Origin: Nitrospira sp. KM1 | GTDB lineage: Bacteria; Nitrospirota; Nitrospiria; Nitrospirales; Nitrospiraceae | Assembly: GCF_011405515.1 (NCBI RefSeq) | Contig: NZ_AP022671.1 | Location: forward strand, 1,178,001 to 1,242,000 | Direction: 5' to 3' | Length of the DNA: 64,000 nucleotides | Shown here: positions 21,667 to 59,868 of the stretch, one piece after another | Position numbering within the stretch: the first letter of the stretch is position 1 | Layout of the letters: every line of letters starts with the position of its first letter | The notes under the pieces: model-generated | What the model was told of the DNA's origin: nothing | The model's input: only the letters and a program-made list of their open reading frames with translations | Database searches by the model: none | Position numbers and translations under genes: made by a program

Positions 21667-21824
21667 CATGAATCATCTCGTTCTCATCCTCGCTACGTTC
21701 GTGCGCTCCTTCTTTCATTGACTCCCTCCCATCCGGTTTGTTAGCCTCGAATTTCGCCGTATCGCCATCGATGGCGGGAGTGCATGCTCAACGGCAACCT
21801 TGTTCAAGCCCGAAAGGAGTTCCG

Positions 21825-23690
21825 ATGGCCAGCCCAGCGACTTCACCAGCAATGCTTACCGAGCTGCACAATAAGGCCACGCACCTGCGGATCGAGAGCG
21901 TGAAGGCGACCAGTGAAGCCGGCAGTGGCCATCCGTCAAGCTGCTGTTCCGCCGCCGACATCGTCGCCGTCCTCTTCTTTTCCGTCATGCGATATGACCC
22001 GAAAAATCCCAAGACCCCGAACAGCGATCGATTCGTTCTTTCCAAAGGTCACGCCGCCCCGCTTCTCTATGCCGCATGGGCTGAGGCCGGCTTGTTCCCC
22101 AAAAGCGAATTGCTCAAGCTCCGCACGCTGCATTCGGACCTGGAGGGGCATCCGACTCCCCGTCTGTCTTTTGTCGATATGGCGACCGGCTCTCTGGGGC
22201 AAGGATTGCCCGTTGGAATCGGCATCGCGCTCAACGCCAAATACGTCGATGCGCTCGATCACCGAACCTACGTGCTGATGGGCGACGGAGAATCCGTCGA
22301 GGGATCCGTCTGGGAGGCGGCCGATCTCGCCCGCCAACACAAACTCGACAATCTCTGCGCGATCATCGACGTGAACCGGCTCGGACAGAGCGACCCGACC
22401 ATGTTGCAGCACGACATGGCCATGTATCAGGCACGATGGTCCGGATTCGGATGGCATGCGATCGTCGTCGATGGTCACGACATCTCCGCATTGGTGGCCG
22501 CCTTTGACGAGGCTTCCCGCACCAAGGGCAAACCCACGATCCTCCTGGCCAAAACCTATAAGGGCAAAGGCATTTCGTTTATCGAAGATCATCCAAATTG
22601 GCATGGCAAGCCGATTCCCAAAGGGGAAGACACGCAGAAGGCGCTCGCGGAACTCAACGGACAATTGAAGCCCAACGGCACGCCGGTTTCGATCGCAAAA
22701 CCGTCCGCACCGGCCCCGCATCCGACTGCCGCCACGGCGCTGCCTCCTCCGCCATACAAGATCGGCGAAGCGGCGGCCACTCGGGAAGCGTTTGGGATCG
22801 CGCTCGAAGCTCTCGGAGGCGCCAATCCCTCCGTCGTTGCCCTCGACGCCGACGTCAAGAATTCGACCTACACCGACAAATTCGGCAAGAAATTCCCGAA
22901 CCGGTTCTTCGAGAATTTCATCGCCGAACAGAACATGCTCGGTGCGGCCGCCGGCCTCGCCGCCTGCGGAAAGATTCCGTTCGTCGCCACCTTTGCGGCC
23001 TTTTTCTCCCGGGCCTACGATTTCGTCCGCATGGCGGCGATCAGCCAATCCAACATCAAGCTCGTGGGGACGCACGTCGGGGTGAGTATCGGAGAAGACG
23101 GCCCGTCTCAGATGGGGCTGGAAGACATCGCCATGATGGCCGCCCAGCCTGGAGTGACCGTCTTGTACCCCTCCGACGGCACCTGCACGTATCGGCTGGT
23201 CGAATTGGCCGCGCAGCATAAAGGCATGGTGTACATTCGAGCCGGACGTCCGAAATCTCCGGTCCTCTACGGCGCCCAGGAATCTTTTCAGATCGGCGGA
23301 TCAAAAGTCCTCAGGCAGAGCGCGTCGGACGCCCTGACGATCGTAGGAGCCGGCGTAACGTTGTTCGAGGCCTTGAAGGCGTACGACCAATTGAAGGCGG
23401 CCGGCATCATGGTGCGCGTGATTGATCTGTATAGCATCGTGCCGATCGACCAGACCACGCTGCTGGATAGCGCCAGGGCGACGCACGGGCGGTTGCTCAC
23501 CGTGGAAGACCATTACGCCCACGGTGGATTGGGTGATGCGGTCTTGAGCGCCGTCGGACCGGAAGGCATCAAAGTCCATAAGCTCGCGGTCCGTTCGATT
23601 CCACACAGCGGAAAACCGGAAGAGCTGGTCAACCACTTTGGCATCGGAGCGGGATCCATTGTCGAAGCGGCAAAACAAATCATCAAGTAA
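21825..23690 (+). CDS. tkt: Transketolase
   Basis: A 621-aa thiamine-diphosphate enzyme that transfers two-carbon units between sugar phosphates. The N-terminal TPP site shows GHPSSCCSAADIVAVLF, FVLSKGHAAPLLYAAWAEAG, and GDGESVEGSVWEAADLARQ ending in DNL. The pyrimidine domain has FIAEQNMLGAAAGLAACG and VSIGEDGPSQMGLEDIAMM. The C-terminal domain ends with VRSIPHSGKPEEL. The length matches the shorter, vertebrate-like transketolase form rather than the 660-aa enterobacterial one. ATG 21825 has AAGGAG five bases before it, which decides against the upstream in-frame start at 21738. Confidence 0.95.
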   Translation: MASPATSPAMLTELHNKATHLRIESVKATSEAGSGHPSSCCSAADIVAVLFFSVMRYDPKNPKTPNSDRFVLSKGHAAPLLYAAWAEAGLFPKSELLKLRTLHSDLEGHPTPRLSFVDMATGSLGQGLPVGIGIALNAKYVDALDHRTYVLMGDGESVEGSVWEAADLARQHKLDNLCAIIDVNRLGQSDPTMLQHDMAMYQARWSGFGWHAIVVDGHDISALVAAFDEASRTKGKPTILLAKTYKGKGISFIEDHPNWHGKPIPKGEDTQKALAELNGQLKPNGTPVSIAKPSAPAPHPTAATALPPPPYKIGEAAATREAFGIALEALGGANPSVVALDADVKNSTYTDKFGKKFPNRFFENFIAEQNMLGAAAGLAACGKIPFVATFAAFFSRAYDFVRMAAISQSNIKLVGTHVGVSIGEDGPSQMGLEDIAMMAAQPGVTVLYPSDGTCTYRLVELAAQHKGMVYIRAGRPKSPVLYGAQESFQIGGSKVLRQSASDALTIVGAGVTLFEALKAYDQLKAAGIMVRVIDLYSIVPIDQTTLLDSARATHGRLLTVEDHYAHGGLGDAVLSAVGPEGIKVHKLAVRSIPHSGKPEELVNHFGIGAGSIVEAAKQIIK

Positions 23691-24387
23691 CCAGTCGATC
23701 ACGGCCCCCACCCACGGACTGTCTCACATTCCTCTCCTGAATATTTTGTCCGGATCGGATCGCCAGCGGATGCTCAAGGAATTGAGCGAAACGCACTACG
23801 GAAAGAATGACTTCATCTTCCGCGAGGGCGATCCGACCGAATACTTCCACATCGTCAAGGAAGGAACCGTGAAGTGTGTCAAGTCTTCGTCCGAAGGCCG
23901 TGAATGTACGTTGAAGATGCTCATGCCGGGAGATCTCTTCTGTTGCGATGCGGCCGCATTCGACGGAGGACGCCATCCAGGCACCGCCAGACCCATGGGG
24001 AATGTGAGCGTCCTTCGCATGAAGAAGAAATCCTATTTCGACATGTTGCGGCGCAATCCCGATGCGGCGATGGAAGTGATCAAGTATTTGGGAACTCGTC
24101 TGCACGAAGCCCAGGAAAAAGCCAAGGTGTTGGCGCTCGATCGAGCCGATCAGCGTCTTGCCGCACTCCTCGTGGATTTCGGCCTCCGCAGCGGGGTCAA
24201 GGACCCGCTCGGGGTTCGCCTGACGGTCCGCCTCACCCGTGAGGATATGGCCAACATGGTCGGCACCACCACGGAAACCGCCATACGCATTATGGGACGT
24301 TTCAAACGAGACCGCCTGGTCTCCGGCACCGCGAACCGCTTGGTGATCCGCGATATCGAGCGGCTCAAATCCCTCGTTTCGACCTGA
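23659..24387 (+). CDS. Crp/Fnr-family transcriptional regulator
   Basis: A 242-aa regulator with a cyclic-nucleotide-binding-like beta roll (FIFREGDPTEYFHIVKEGTVKCV, then LMPGDLFCCDAAAFDGG), a dimer helix, and a C-terminal HTH (LTREDMANMVGTTTETAIRIMGRFKRDRLV) whose E-T-x-x-R recognition helix resembles FNR-type readers of TTGA-like half sites. No N-terminal Fe-S cysteine cluster is present. The start is uncertain: no ATG precedes the sensor domain, and TTG 23659 (GGAG nine bases before) overlaps the tkt end by 32 bases. Location directly before nirK suggests it controls that gene. Confidence 0.88.
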   Translation: MSKRQNKSSSNQSITAPTHGLSHIPLLNILSGSDRQRMLKELSETHYGKNDFIFREGDPTEYFHIVKEGTVKCVKSSSEGRECTLKMLMPGDLFCCDAAAFDGGRHPGTARPMGNVSVLRMKKKSYFDMLRRNPDAAMEVIKYLGTRLHEAQEKAKVLALDRADQRLAALLVDFGLRSGVKDPLGVRLTVRLTREDMANMVGTTTETAIRIMGRFKRDRLVSGTANRLVIRDIERLKSLVST

Positions 24388-24433: not shown

Positions 24434-24459
24434 AAAAACATGACCGGTGTCATGTTTTT
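24434..24459. promoter_or_regulatory. Perfect inverted repeat between the Crp/Fnr gene and nirK
   Basis: The arms AAAAACATGAC and GTCATGTTTTT flank CGGT. The inner ATGAC-N4-GTCAT has exactly the 5-N4-5 layout of Crp/Fnr-type boxes. It ends 76 bases before the nirK start, so it could be an operator for the adjacent regulator. The T-run also allows it to act as a bidirectional terminator after the regulator gene. Both uses are possible. Confidence 0.6.
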
Positions 24460-24535
24460 ATCGGCCCGCGTCCGATATCCTCCTACCCCGGATACAGGAC
24501 ACCCACGCTCTCACATGTGAAGGAGGATTGCGCCG

Positions 24536-25525
24536 ATGGATACAATACGCACGACCCGCCGAAGACGATTCGCCGCGGGACTTTGGATTCTCACGTTTGG
24601 ATGTCTTGCCGCCATGCCGGCGCCGGCCTCCTCCAAGACGCACGACGTGTCCATGACGGCGGTCGAAACCGACGTCGTCGTCGAAGGTTCCGGAGAAAAA
24701 TACGCGGCGTGGACCTTCAACGGCACCATGCCGGGGCCGGTCGTCCGCGTGACCGAGGGAGACACGATCAAGTTCACCCTGACGAATCCGGCGACCAACA
24801 AATATCCGCATGCGATGGATTTCCATGCAGCCGAGATTGATTTCCTCAAGAACTATCGGGCGATCAACGCCGGTGAAACGATCACCTATACCTTCGTCGC
24901 CAAAAAGCCGGGTGTCTTTTTCTATCATTGCGGCGCACCGCCGATGATCCAGCACATTGCCCGCGGCATGTTCGGTGCGATTATCGTCGATCCCAAGAAT
25001 CCCAAAGCCTGGCCGAAAGCGGACCGGGAATACGTGCTCGTTCAATCGGAGCTATTCAAAAATCCCGACGACGTGCAAGCCATGTTCGATCGAAAGTTCG
25101 ACCACGTCATTTTCAACGGCGGCGTTTTTAAGTATCACCCGTTCGTCACCGGAGGAGGCAAACTGGACGCCAAACCGGGCGAGCGAGTACGGATTTACTT
25201 CGTCAACGCGGGTCCGAATGAATTTTCGGCTTTCCATCCCATCGGTGAAATTTGGGATCAGGTGTATGAAAGCGGCAATCCTCAAAATAAGCTGACGGGC
25301 GTGCAGACCTACGTCGTCGGACCCGGCGGCGCCGCAACCTTCGATGTCATCACGGAATCGGCGGGAGCGTATCCGCTGGTGACCCATTCGTTGACCGGCG
25401 CATTGCGTGGCGGCATCGCCGTACTCGTGGCCTCGCCGGATGCCAAACCGGCCCCGCTGATGCCCATGGTTCCATGGAAGGTTGCCACGCCACAGACTGA
25501 GATCACACCGGTTCCGGTACCATAG
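24536..25525 (+). CDS. nirK: Copper-containing nitrite reductase (NO-forming)
   Basis: A 329-aa two-cupredoxin protein with a twin-arginine-like leader (RRRRFAAGLWILTF). Copper ligands follow the NirK pattern: His92 and the Asp95/His97 pair in HAMDFH, His131-Cys132 in FYHCGAPP, His140 and Met145 in QHIARGM, the catalytic-pocket His234 in AFHPIGE, and His284 in VTHSL. It should reduce nitrite to nitric oxide in the periplasm; NirK is a known abundant enzyme of Nitrospira. AAGGAGG lies nine bases before the ATG. A strong hairpin closes the transcript. Confidence 0.93.
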   Translation: MDTIRTTRRRRFAAGLWILTFGCLAAMPAPASSKTHDVSMTAVETDVVVEGSGEKYAAWTFNGTMPGPVVRVTEGDTIKFTLTNPATNKYPHAMDFHAAEIDFLKNYRAINAGETITYTFVAKKPGVFFYHCGAPPMIQHIARGMFGAIIVDPKNPKAWPKADREYVLVQSELFKNPDDVQAMFDRKFDHVIFNGGVFKYHPFVTGGGKLDAKPGERVRIYFVNAGPNEFSAFHPIGEIWDQVYESGNPQNKLTGVQTYVVGPGGAATFDVITESAGAYPLVTHSLTGALRGGIAVLVASPDAKPAPLMPMVPWKVATPQTEITPVPVP

Positions 25526-25534
25526 CCGCACATC

Positions 25535-25568
25535 GGGAGGTCCTTCTCCGTAATAAGAAGGACCTCCC
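25535..25568 (+). terminator. Hairpin terminator after nirK
   Basis: A 13-bp perfect stem (GGGAGGTCCTTCT and its complement) around an 8-base loop begins 10 bases after the nirK stop. Only ATTT follows, so the U-tract is weak, but the stem is strong. It should end the nirK message or protect its 3' end. Confidence 0.7.
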
Positions 25569-25600: not shown

Positions 25601-25960
25601 ATGAATCGACGATCACCAACCCGTTTGGCAGCTCTGGTGCTTGTCTCCATCATCTGTCCGGCTCAGCACTCCGTCTCGGCCGGATCACTCGAGCGTGTCA
25701 CGGTCCAACTCGATGGTCCTTCGTGCCTTCCCAGGCACGACATCATCTCCGCACTCTCGACGCTGCCGGGCATTCACCTGACGGATATTTCGGTCCCCGA
25801 TCACCTGCTCATCGACATCGATCCGAGTCTGCTCGACCGGCATCAGGCGCTCGCGAACATTACCGGCGCGATCGGCTCGCCCGGATGCAGAATCCAACCG
25901 ATGCAGTCGTGCATTTCCGCCTCATTTGCCGCGTCCGTTCGGCCGGCCACAAAAGAATGA
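25601..25960 (+). CDS. Secreted HMA-like small protein
   Basis: A 119-aa protein with a signal peptide (about residues 1-27). The mature part has the rhythm of a heavy-metal-associated domain: VQLDGPSCLPRHDIISALSTLPGIHLTDISV, then LIDIDPSLLDRHQALANITGAIGSPGCRI. Only one Cys (Cys42) is present where the GMxCxxC metal loop would be, with Cys96 and Cys104 further on. It may be a periplasmic metal carrier related to the neighbouring copper enzyme, or an HMA fold that has lost classical metal binding. The resemblance is by eye. Confidence 0.5.
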   Translation: MNRRSPTRLAALVLVSIICPAQHSVSAGSLERVTVQLDGPSCLPRHDIISALSTLPGIHLTDISVPDHLLIDIDPSLLDRHQALANITGAIGSPGCRIQPMQSCISASFAASVRPATKE

Positions 25961-58509: not shown

Positions 58510-59019
58510 CTAATATCGACCTTTCAGGGCGAGCGGAACGGACGTGAGCTCGCGATAGAGCCGATGGAATGCCTCGGTTGTCAACTCGGGATCTTGCAGA
58601 CTCGCCAATGCCGATGCCTCGATGGGATATTCGACTGTGTCATCGAAATTCGACGATGCAATCGTGACGAAGCGCGGAGGGAACAGCCGTTCGGGCAACA
58701 GTATGTTAATGCCGAGATTGTATTTCAGCGCCAGGCGGATGACTTCACGCGCTCGGTCGGCCGGTACATCGCGCCCCAAACCGATGTTTTGCGGCGGCTG
58801 GCCGCGCTTGACAAATTGAAAATGCGCATTGTGGAAACCAGCCTGCGCGAACTCTTCCTTAAGCGCTGCGGTCGAATGCCGGTACTGATTGGCCAACACG
58901 ACCTCGATACGGCTGACCCCGGAAACCGGTACGTCATTGGCAAGAACTCCCGCCGCGATCGTTATAACGGTCGCGGCGGCGACCGTCACCATCATCCGCA
59001 AATAGAACGTGCGTGTCAT
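58510..59019 (-). CDS. Secreted protein of unknown function
   Basis: A 169-aa protein with a signal peptide (residues about 1-28, VTVAAATVITIAAGVLA) and a compact mature domain: SRIEVVLANQYRHSTAALKEEFAQAGFHNAHFQFVKRGQPPQNIGLGRDVPADRAREVIRLALKYNLGINILLPE. ATG 59019 overlaps the upstream stop and has GGAG seven bases before it. No family is recognised. Its tight placement in the copper-type operon suggests a periplasmic accessory role. Confidence 0.6.
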   Translation of the reverse strand: MTRTFYLRMMVTVAAATVITIAAGVLANDVPVSGVSRIEVVLANQYRHSTAALKEEFAQAGFHNAHFQFVKRGQPPQNIGLGRDVPADRAREVIRLALKYNLGINILLPERLFPPRFVTIASSNFDDTVEYPIEASALASLQDPELTTEAFHRLYRELTSVPLALKGRY

Positions 59020-59807: not shown

Positions 59808-59868
59808 AAGAGACCCTGCTGAGTATGGCAGGCAGCGTCTTTTCAGAAAGACGCTGCCTGCTCCATGG

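Follow-up and report, generated by a model that had tools for sequence, protein, structure and literature searches.

The region analysed, referred to here as the window, comprises 64,000 nucleotides (bases 1178001–1242000) of the single-contig 4.5-Mb genome of Nitrospira sp. KM1. Genes for a transketolase, a Crp/Fnr-family regulator, a nirK-type copper nitrite reductase, a small secreted protein, a formate/nitrite-type transporter and an efflux transporter follow one another in that order, with a palindrome between the regulator gene and nirK (Table 1). The annotated TTG start of the regulator gene corresponds to the longest reading of the frame and overlaps the 3' end of the transketolase gene (23638–23690); because of this overlap, and because two relatives carry a TAG inside the frame near the annotated start, the true start probably lies downstream of the TTG. 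The nirK product has TIGR02376 as its best family, yet scores under the curated cut-off (199 versus 296 bits). The inverted repeat directly after nirK is a possible end of the nirK transcript. The small secreted protein encoded directly 3' of nirK (25601–25960) has no match in Pfam or NCBIfam; short open reading frames of similar look also follow nirK in relatives (L014, L017), and the protein is possibly a NirK accessory protein.

Table 1. Features of the regulator–nirK region, with positions counted from the first base of the window.
Feature	Position	Strand	Basis
Transketolase	21738–23690		
Crp/Fnr-family regulator gene	23638–24387	+	PF00027 and PF13545; nirK-adjacent orthologues across family
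Palindrome, 11-bp arms, 4-base centre	24434–24459	.	Sequence, shuffle test
Operator AACATGAy-N4-rTCATGTT	24437–24456	.	82/82 regulator-linked loci, column conservation, co-occurrence
nirK promoter −10 element TATCCT	24476–24481	+	TAnnnT at this spacing in 82/82 loci
Predicted nirK transcription start	24488	+	Inferred, 7 bases after −10
nirK ribosome-binding site AAGGAGG	24520–24526	+	Sequence
nirK-type copper nitrite reductase	24536–25525	+	Cu-oxidase domains; kept downstream of operator
13-bp inverted repeat directly after nirK	25535–25568	+	Inverted-repeat search

The palindrome reads AAAAACATGAC-CGGT-GTCATGTTTTT, with arms that are 100% complementary over 11 bp and a core, ATGAC-CGGT-GTCAT, at 24440–24453. 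The initial annotation had described a perfect 5-N4-5 palindrome, ATGAC-N4-GTCAT, as the core of an 11-base-arm repeat and had placed it between the Crp/Fnr gene and nirK; both statements are confirmed, the site falling between the stop of the regulator frame (24387) and the nirK ATG (24536). The window has three places with perfect repeats of at least 11-base arms and loops of 3 to 8 bases (here, at 25535–25568 and at 59828–59861), whereas 20 dinucleotide shuffles gave an average of 0.05 per window. The repeat at 59828–59861 is a strong one, its perfect 15-bp arms enclosing a loop of 4 bases; another strong inverted repeat, at 58950–58979, is a 30-bp palindrome that is nearly perfect.

The 5-N4-5 core alone is common, being matched exactly 10 times across the 4.5 Mb, and when two mismatches are allowed it occurs 32 times in the window versus 28.7 times by chance, which is no excess. 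Two-mismatch sites in the genus, among those read in context, lie mostly within reading frames. The extended 20-base site AACATGAYNNNNRTCATGTT has two exact matches in the genome. The core was rejected as a regulon marker, since just two of its ten sites have the extended arms; these two precede nirK and a ferredoxin-thioredoxin reductase gene.

Orthologues of the regulator, defined at E below 1e-60, are present in 83 of the 175 genomes of the family. They provide 82 readable downstream regions, one genome giving two, and one gene fragment and one contig-split regulator having been omitted. The palindrome is found downstream of crp in all 82 regions, a count that, like the other locus and genome counts given here, comes from related genomes and does not represent independent trials. 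The operator, AACATGAy-N4-rTCATGTT, consists of CATGA half-sites in TGA-N6-TCA geometry and is matched exactly in 53 loci, with one mismatch in 15, two in 12, three in one and four in one. Its A6/TCA core (in CATGA-N6-TCATG) is nearly invariant over the 82 loci, the four centre bases vary, and changes in the outer arms are often symmetric, with AATATGA..TCATATT seen at 10 loci. The gene close behind the operator is nirK in 77 of the 82 loci, and in the genome with the contig-split regulator (G123) nirK is likewise preceded by an exact match. Separately, in G011 and G070, and probably in G008, crp and the operator precede a cytochrome c gene and not nirK (L129:2074-3665, L070, L072), the call in G008 being made from sequence likeness only; these genes hint at a common electron-transfer theme among targets.

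The arrangement extends to a sister family of the same order, where one locus (L244:1229-3068) combines a regulator with 53% identity, the operator, the hexamer TATACT and, at 38% identity, a relative of NirK. A phylum-wide scan gave many extra matches in other families, partly AT-rich, and of the 10 regions read from it L244 is the only one with the crp-operator-nirK module. An intergenic site in the same phylum, ATGACCTCTGTCATGTT in L250 (about base 2218, minus strand), stands at the operator spacing from a TATAAT, with no crp or nirK close by, and may be a related Crp-type site.

Promoter geometry is conserved together with the operator. A TAnnnT hexamer starts 19 bases (56 loci) or 20 bases (26 loci) after the 20-base site in all 82 loci, and in 76 of them it has the form TATnnT; apart from a single occurrence at offset 35, TATnnT was otherwise confined to the first 5 of the 44 bases scanned. 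No −35 element is recognisable over these loci, the best hexamer at 16–18 bp spacing agreeing with TTGACA at an average of 2.1 of 6 positions. The possibility that the palindrome is a functionless chance inverted repeat, or a simple A/T-flanked palindrome, draws on the frequency of the 5-N4-5 core, but perfect 11-bp arms seldom arise by chance, and conservation at a fixed distance to the −10 element in 82 loci excludes it for practical purposes.

With the start placed 7 bases after the −10 element (~24488), the operator centre would fall at about −41.5. Crp occupies this position at class II promoters (PMC5957442), and in all 82 loci the site overlaps the place of the −35 element at a fixed distance from the −10 element, as in a class II layout. 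Alternatively, the regulator might bind the site as a repressor, with a signal relieving repression of nirK. Operators that overlap a promoter can repress, also at −41.5, Crp/Fnr proteins act in both ways, and the evidence leaves the sign of regulation unfixed. Nevertheless, a centre at −41.5 combined with a −10 element that has no −35 is the classical layout for class II activation, and a promoter of this kind would be weak unaided, so that repression appears improbable.

The operator and the regulator also co-occur. The pattern of operator, 19–20 bases and TATnnT is present in 71 of the 175 genomes, all 71 of which carry the regulator, and in none of the 92 genomes that lack it; a reversed control pattern gave no match among the 175. 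The remaining 12 of the 83 regulator-bearing genomes miss the strict pattern through degenerate sites or −10 elements. Exact motif matches in regulator-less genomes G068, G124, G134 and G151 were rejected as other inverted repeats or as sites with the −10 element not at the right distance. The nirK gene itself is more widespread (147 of the 175 genomes). In 20 nirK loci read from regulator-less genomes (L140–L159) the upstream regions differ, the operator is found in none, the best candidates having 4–7 mismatches, and no convincing crp gene lies upstream of nirK. A few of these promoters have a clear −35 element (TTGACA-17-TATACT in L144, TTGACT in L140–L143), suggesting regulator-independent nirK expression in these lineages. 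A general gain of −35 elements in regulator-less nirK promoters was considered and rejected, the effect being weak over all 20 loci (p 0.04).

Sites unlinked to a regulator gene provide a further comparison. In one genus a second nirK copy is found elsewhere; ten loci of this nirK2 were read, and nine of them have the operator and TATCCT ahead of the gene, the operator being degenerate in two. None of the nine loci has a crp gene alongside, their hairpins are weak (−3.9 to −5.4 kcal/mol), and six of the nine sites have no run of four T. About 50 bp upstream of the nirK2 sites an unrelated, co-oriented gene ends, so that location by itself would be no argument against a terminator. The second exact operator of the KM1 genome lies outside the window, at C1:1928022-1928041 (L039, L137:2023-2042), and precedes the gene for the beta chain of a ferredoxin-thioredoxin reductase (PF02943). 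It has the same spacing to a TATCTT and is followed by two T only, and the upstream reading frame is divergent; an operator before the ferredoxin-thioredoxin reductase gene was not seen in other genomes of the genus.

These observations bear on the alternative that the palindrome is an intrinsic terminator of crp, formed by the stem CATGAC/GTCATG and a T-run, in which case the regulator would bind it only secondarily or not at all. In the KM1 genome the segment 24420–24475 forms a good hairpin (z −4.3), five T follow CATG and the palindrome is located 47 bp past the crp stop; at least four T directly follow TCAT(G/A) in 57 of the 82 linked loci. However, the T-run lies inside the arm, where it is paired with an A-run, and the palindrome was not called in a terminator scan. 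Among linked loci the T-run ranges in length from 0 to 7 and hairpins are as weak as −1.6 kcal/mol, while the nirK2 copies retain the operator and the −10 spacing with the weak hairpins and missing T-runs just described, and the site ahead of the ferredoxin-thioredoxin reductase gene has its two T and divergent upstream frame. A −10 element at fixed distance is, moreover, nothing that a terminator needs. Because T-run and hairpin strength vary while promoter geometry is kept, termination is not the conserved function, and this alternative is very improbable, although the palindrome may have a weak terminator effect in this genome. The second use as a terminator offered in the initial annotation is thus not upheld as the conserved function. 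Its proposal of a binding site for the adjacent regulator is strongly supported at the level of sequence comparison: the site is conserved, keeps its spacing, co-occurs with the regulator and is present at the unlinked nirK copies.

The regulator belongs to the Crp/Fnr superfamily, with an N-terminal cNMP-binding-like domain (PF00027) and a C-terminal Crp-type HTH domain (PF13545) both above cut-off. Its structure model, of moderate quality (pLDDT 76, pTM 0.48), matches Crp-family proteins, and its named relatives are nearly all from Nitrospira or Nitrospirota. Three other Crp-type HTH proteins are encoded in this genome, and the adjacent regulator is for this reason assigned to the site through linkage and co-occurrence. 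The recognition helix, in which Glu213 and Arg217 are invariant, retains the Glu and Arg responsible for reading GA across the Crp/Fnr superfamily; where CRP has Arg180, the orthologues carry Thr or Val, in one case Pro. Rodionov et al. linked half-site base 3 to CRP position 180 and base 6 to position 181 (PMC1274295). Retention of Glu181 with loss of Arg180 thus fits a half-site that keeps GA and has A instead of G at base 3.

In the sensor domain Cys80, Cys102, Cys103, His71 and His113 are invariant and Cys90 is nearly so (window 23848–23976). The N-terminal cysteine cluster of FNR type is absent, no cysteine occurring before residue 80. Sequence alignments to cAMP-binding relatives indicate that the Glu and Arg of the cAMP cassette are also absent: GDLFCCDAAAFDGGRHPGTA replaces the GE...RSA-type cassette, and the Cys-Cys pair stands where these relatives have the Gly-Glu type cassette. 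Cys102 aligns with a cysteine of CooA, the best sequence match among solved structures, and we take this cysteine to correspond to Cys75 of the R. rubrum protein. R. rubrum CooA Cys75 binds ferric heme (PMC6955866). CooA, a heme CO sensor of the Crp/Fnr family, shares this cysteine but differs in having a Cys-x-His motif in place of Cys102-Cys103-Asp104, an inserted segment and another operator; membership in CooA was rejected, as the heme-ligand histidine two residues past the conserved cysteine is missing from the regulator. From these residues, a role of the regulator as a metal or heme sensor is at most conceivable.

The nirK promoter resembles class II Crp/Fnr promoters of the E. coli CRP and FNR type in its two-fold symmetric TGA-N6-TCA site and in its centre at about −41.5 (counted from the inferred start), TATnnT −10 element and lack of a good −35. 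The half-site is CATGA here, compared with TGTGA for CRP and TTGAT for FNR, and A/T-rich outer arms stretch the symmetry to 11 bp, unlike the E. coli sites. Among the FNR, CRP, DNR, NnrR and HcpR consensus sites the operator is closest to the Geobacter/Desulfuromonas type of HcpR, TTGACnnnnGTCAA (PMC1274295), and differs from all five. HcpR is likewise a Crp/Fnr regulator of nitrogen-oxide genes, and its site has the same GAC-N4-GTC centre, but half-site base 3 is T instead of A and the targets are hcp and frdX instead of nirK. DNR and NnrR, likewise Crp/Fnr regulators, control nirK or nirS in denitrifiers from sites with different half-sites (CTTGATnnnnATCAAG and ctTTGcgnnnncgCAAag, respectively; PMC1274295). 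An NnrR/DNR operator (TTGcg-N4-cgCAA or TTGAT-N4-ATCAA) was rejected for this locus, where the consensus is ACATGAy-N4-rTCATGT.

Beach et al. (2021) applied NnrR motifs of other bacteria to a Nitrospira MAG to predict a regulon (PMC8510549), motifs that the operator found here does not fit. An Fnr-type gene beside nirK in four Nitrospira genomes, with a suggested control of nirK, was reported by Camejo et al. (2017); the available text of that study gives the adjacency without an operator, consensus, promoter geometry or further targets (PMC5596200). No description of this operator was found among the open-access PMC papers searched. The crp-nirK adjacency was therefore already known, the operator appears to be new, and the mechanism is ordinary for the Crp/Fnr superfamily.

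Taken as a whole, and judged from sequence comparison, the palindrome is most probably (about 0.88) the operator of the Crp/Fnr regulator encoded upstream, serving class II activation of nirK. The binding-site part of this reading is well supported; physical binding, activation of nirK and the transcription start are what we infer from it. A regulator dimer would bind AACATGAy-N4-rTCATGTT with each subunit reading one CATGA half-site, a consensus that can now take the place of the "unknown specificity" given to the regulator in the initial annotation. The bound dimer, centred ~41.5 bp before the nirK start and covering the place of the −35 element, would activate RNA polymerase in class II fashion at a promoter with a TATnnT −10 element and no recognisable −35. 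As its signal, a redox, gas or nitrogen-oxide cue perceived through the conserved Cys and His residues is plausible. A broader and rather doubtful proposal is that the regulator represents a Nitrospirales-wide Crp/Fnr subfamily with its own CATGA-N6-TCATG code, using a metal or heme site of Cys80, Cys102, Cys103, His71 and His113 to sense NO or redox state, and forming with its operator a dedicated nirK module gained or lost as a unit.

What nirK does in nitrite-oxidizing bacteria has yet to be resolved (PMC6606698). With operator, promoter and regulator defined, the control of nirK becomes testable in vitro and in heterologous hosts, and the distribution of operator and regulator shows which lineages have dropped this control. 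The consensus obtained here can replace borrowed NnrR or FNR motifs in transcriptome work on Nitrospira, and the operator provides a precise handle on an enzyme of unexplained role in nitrifying bacteria.
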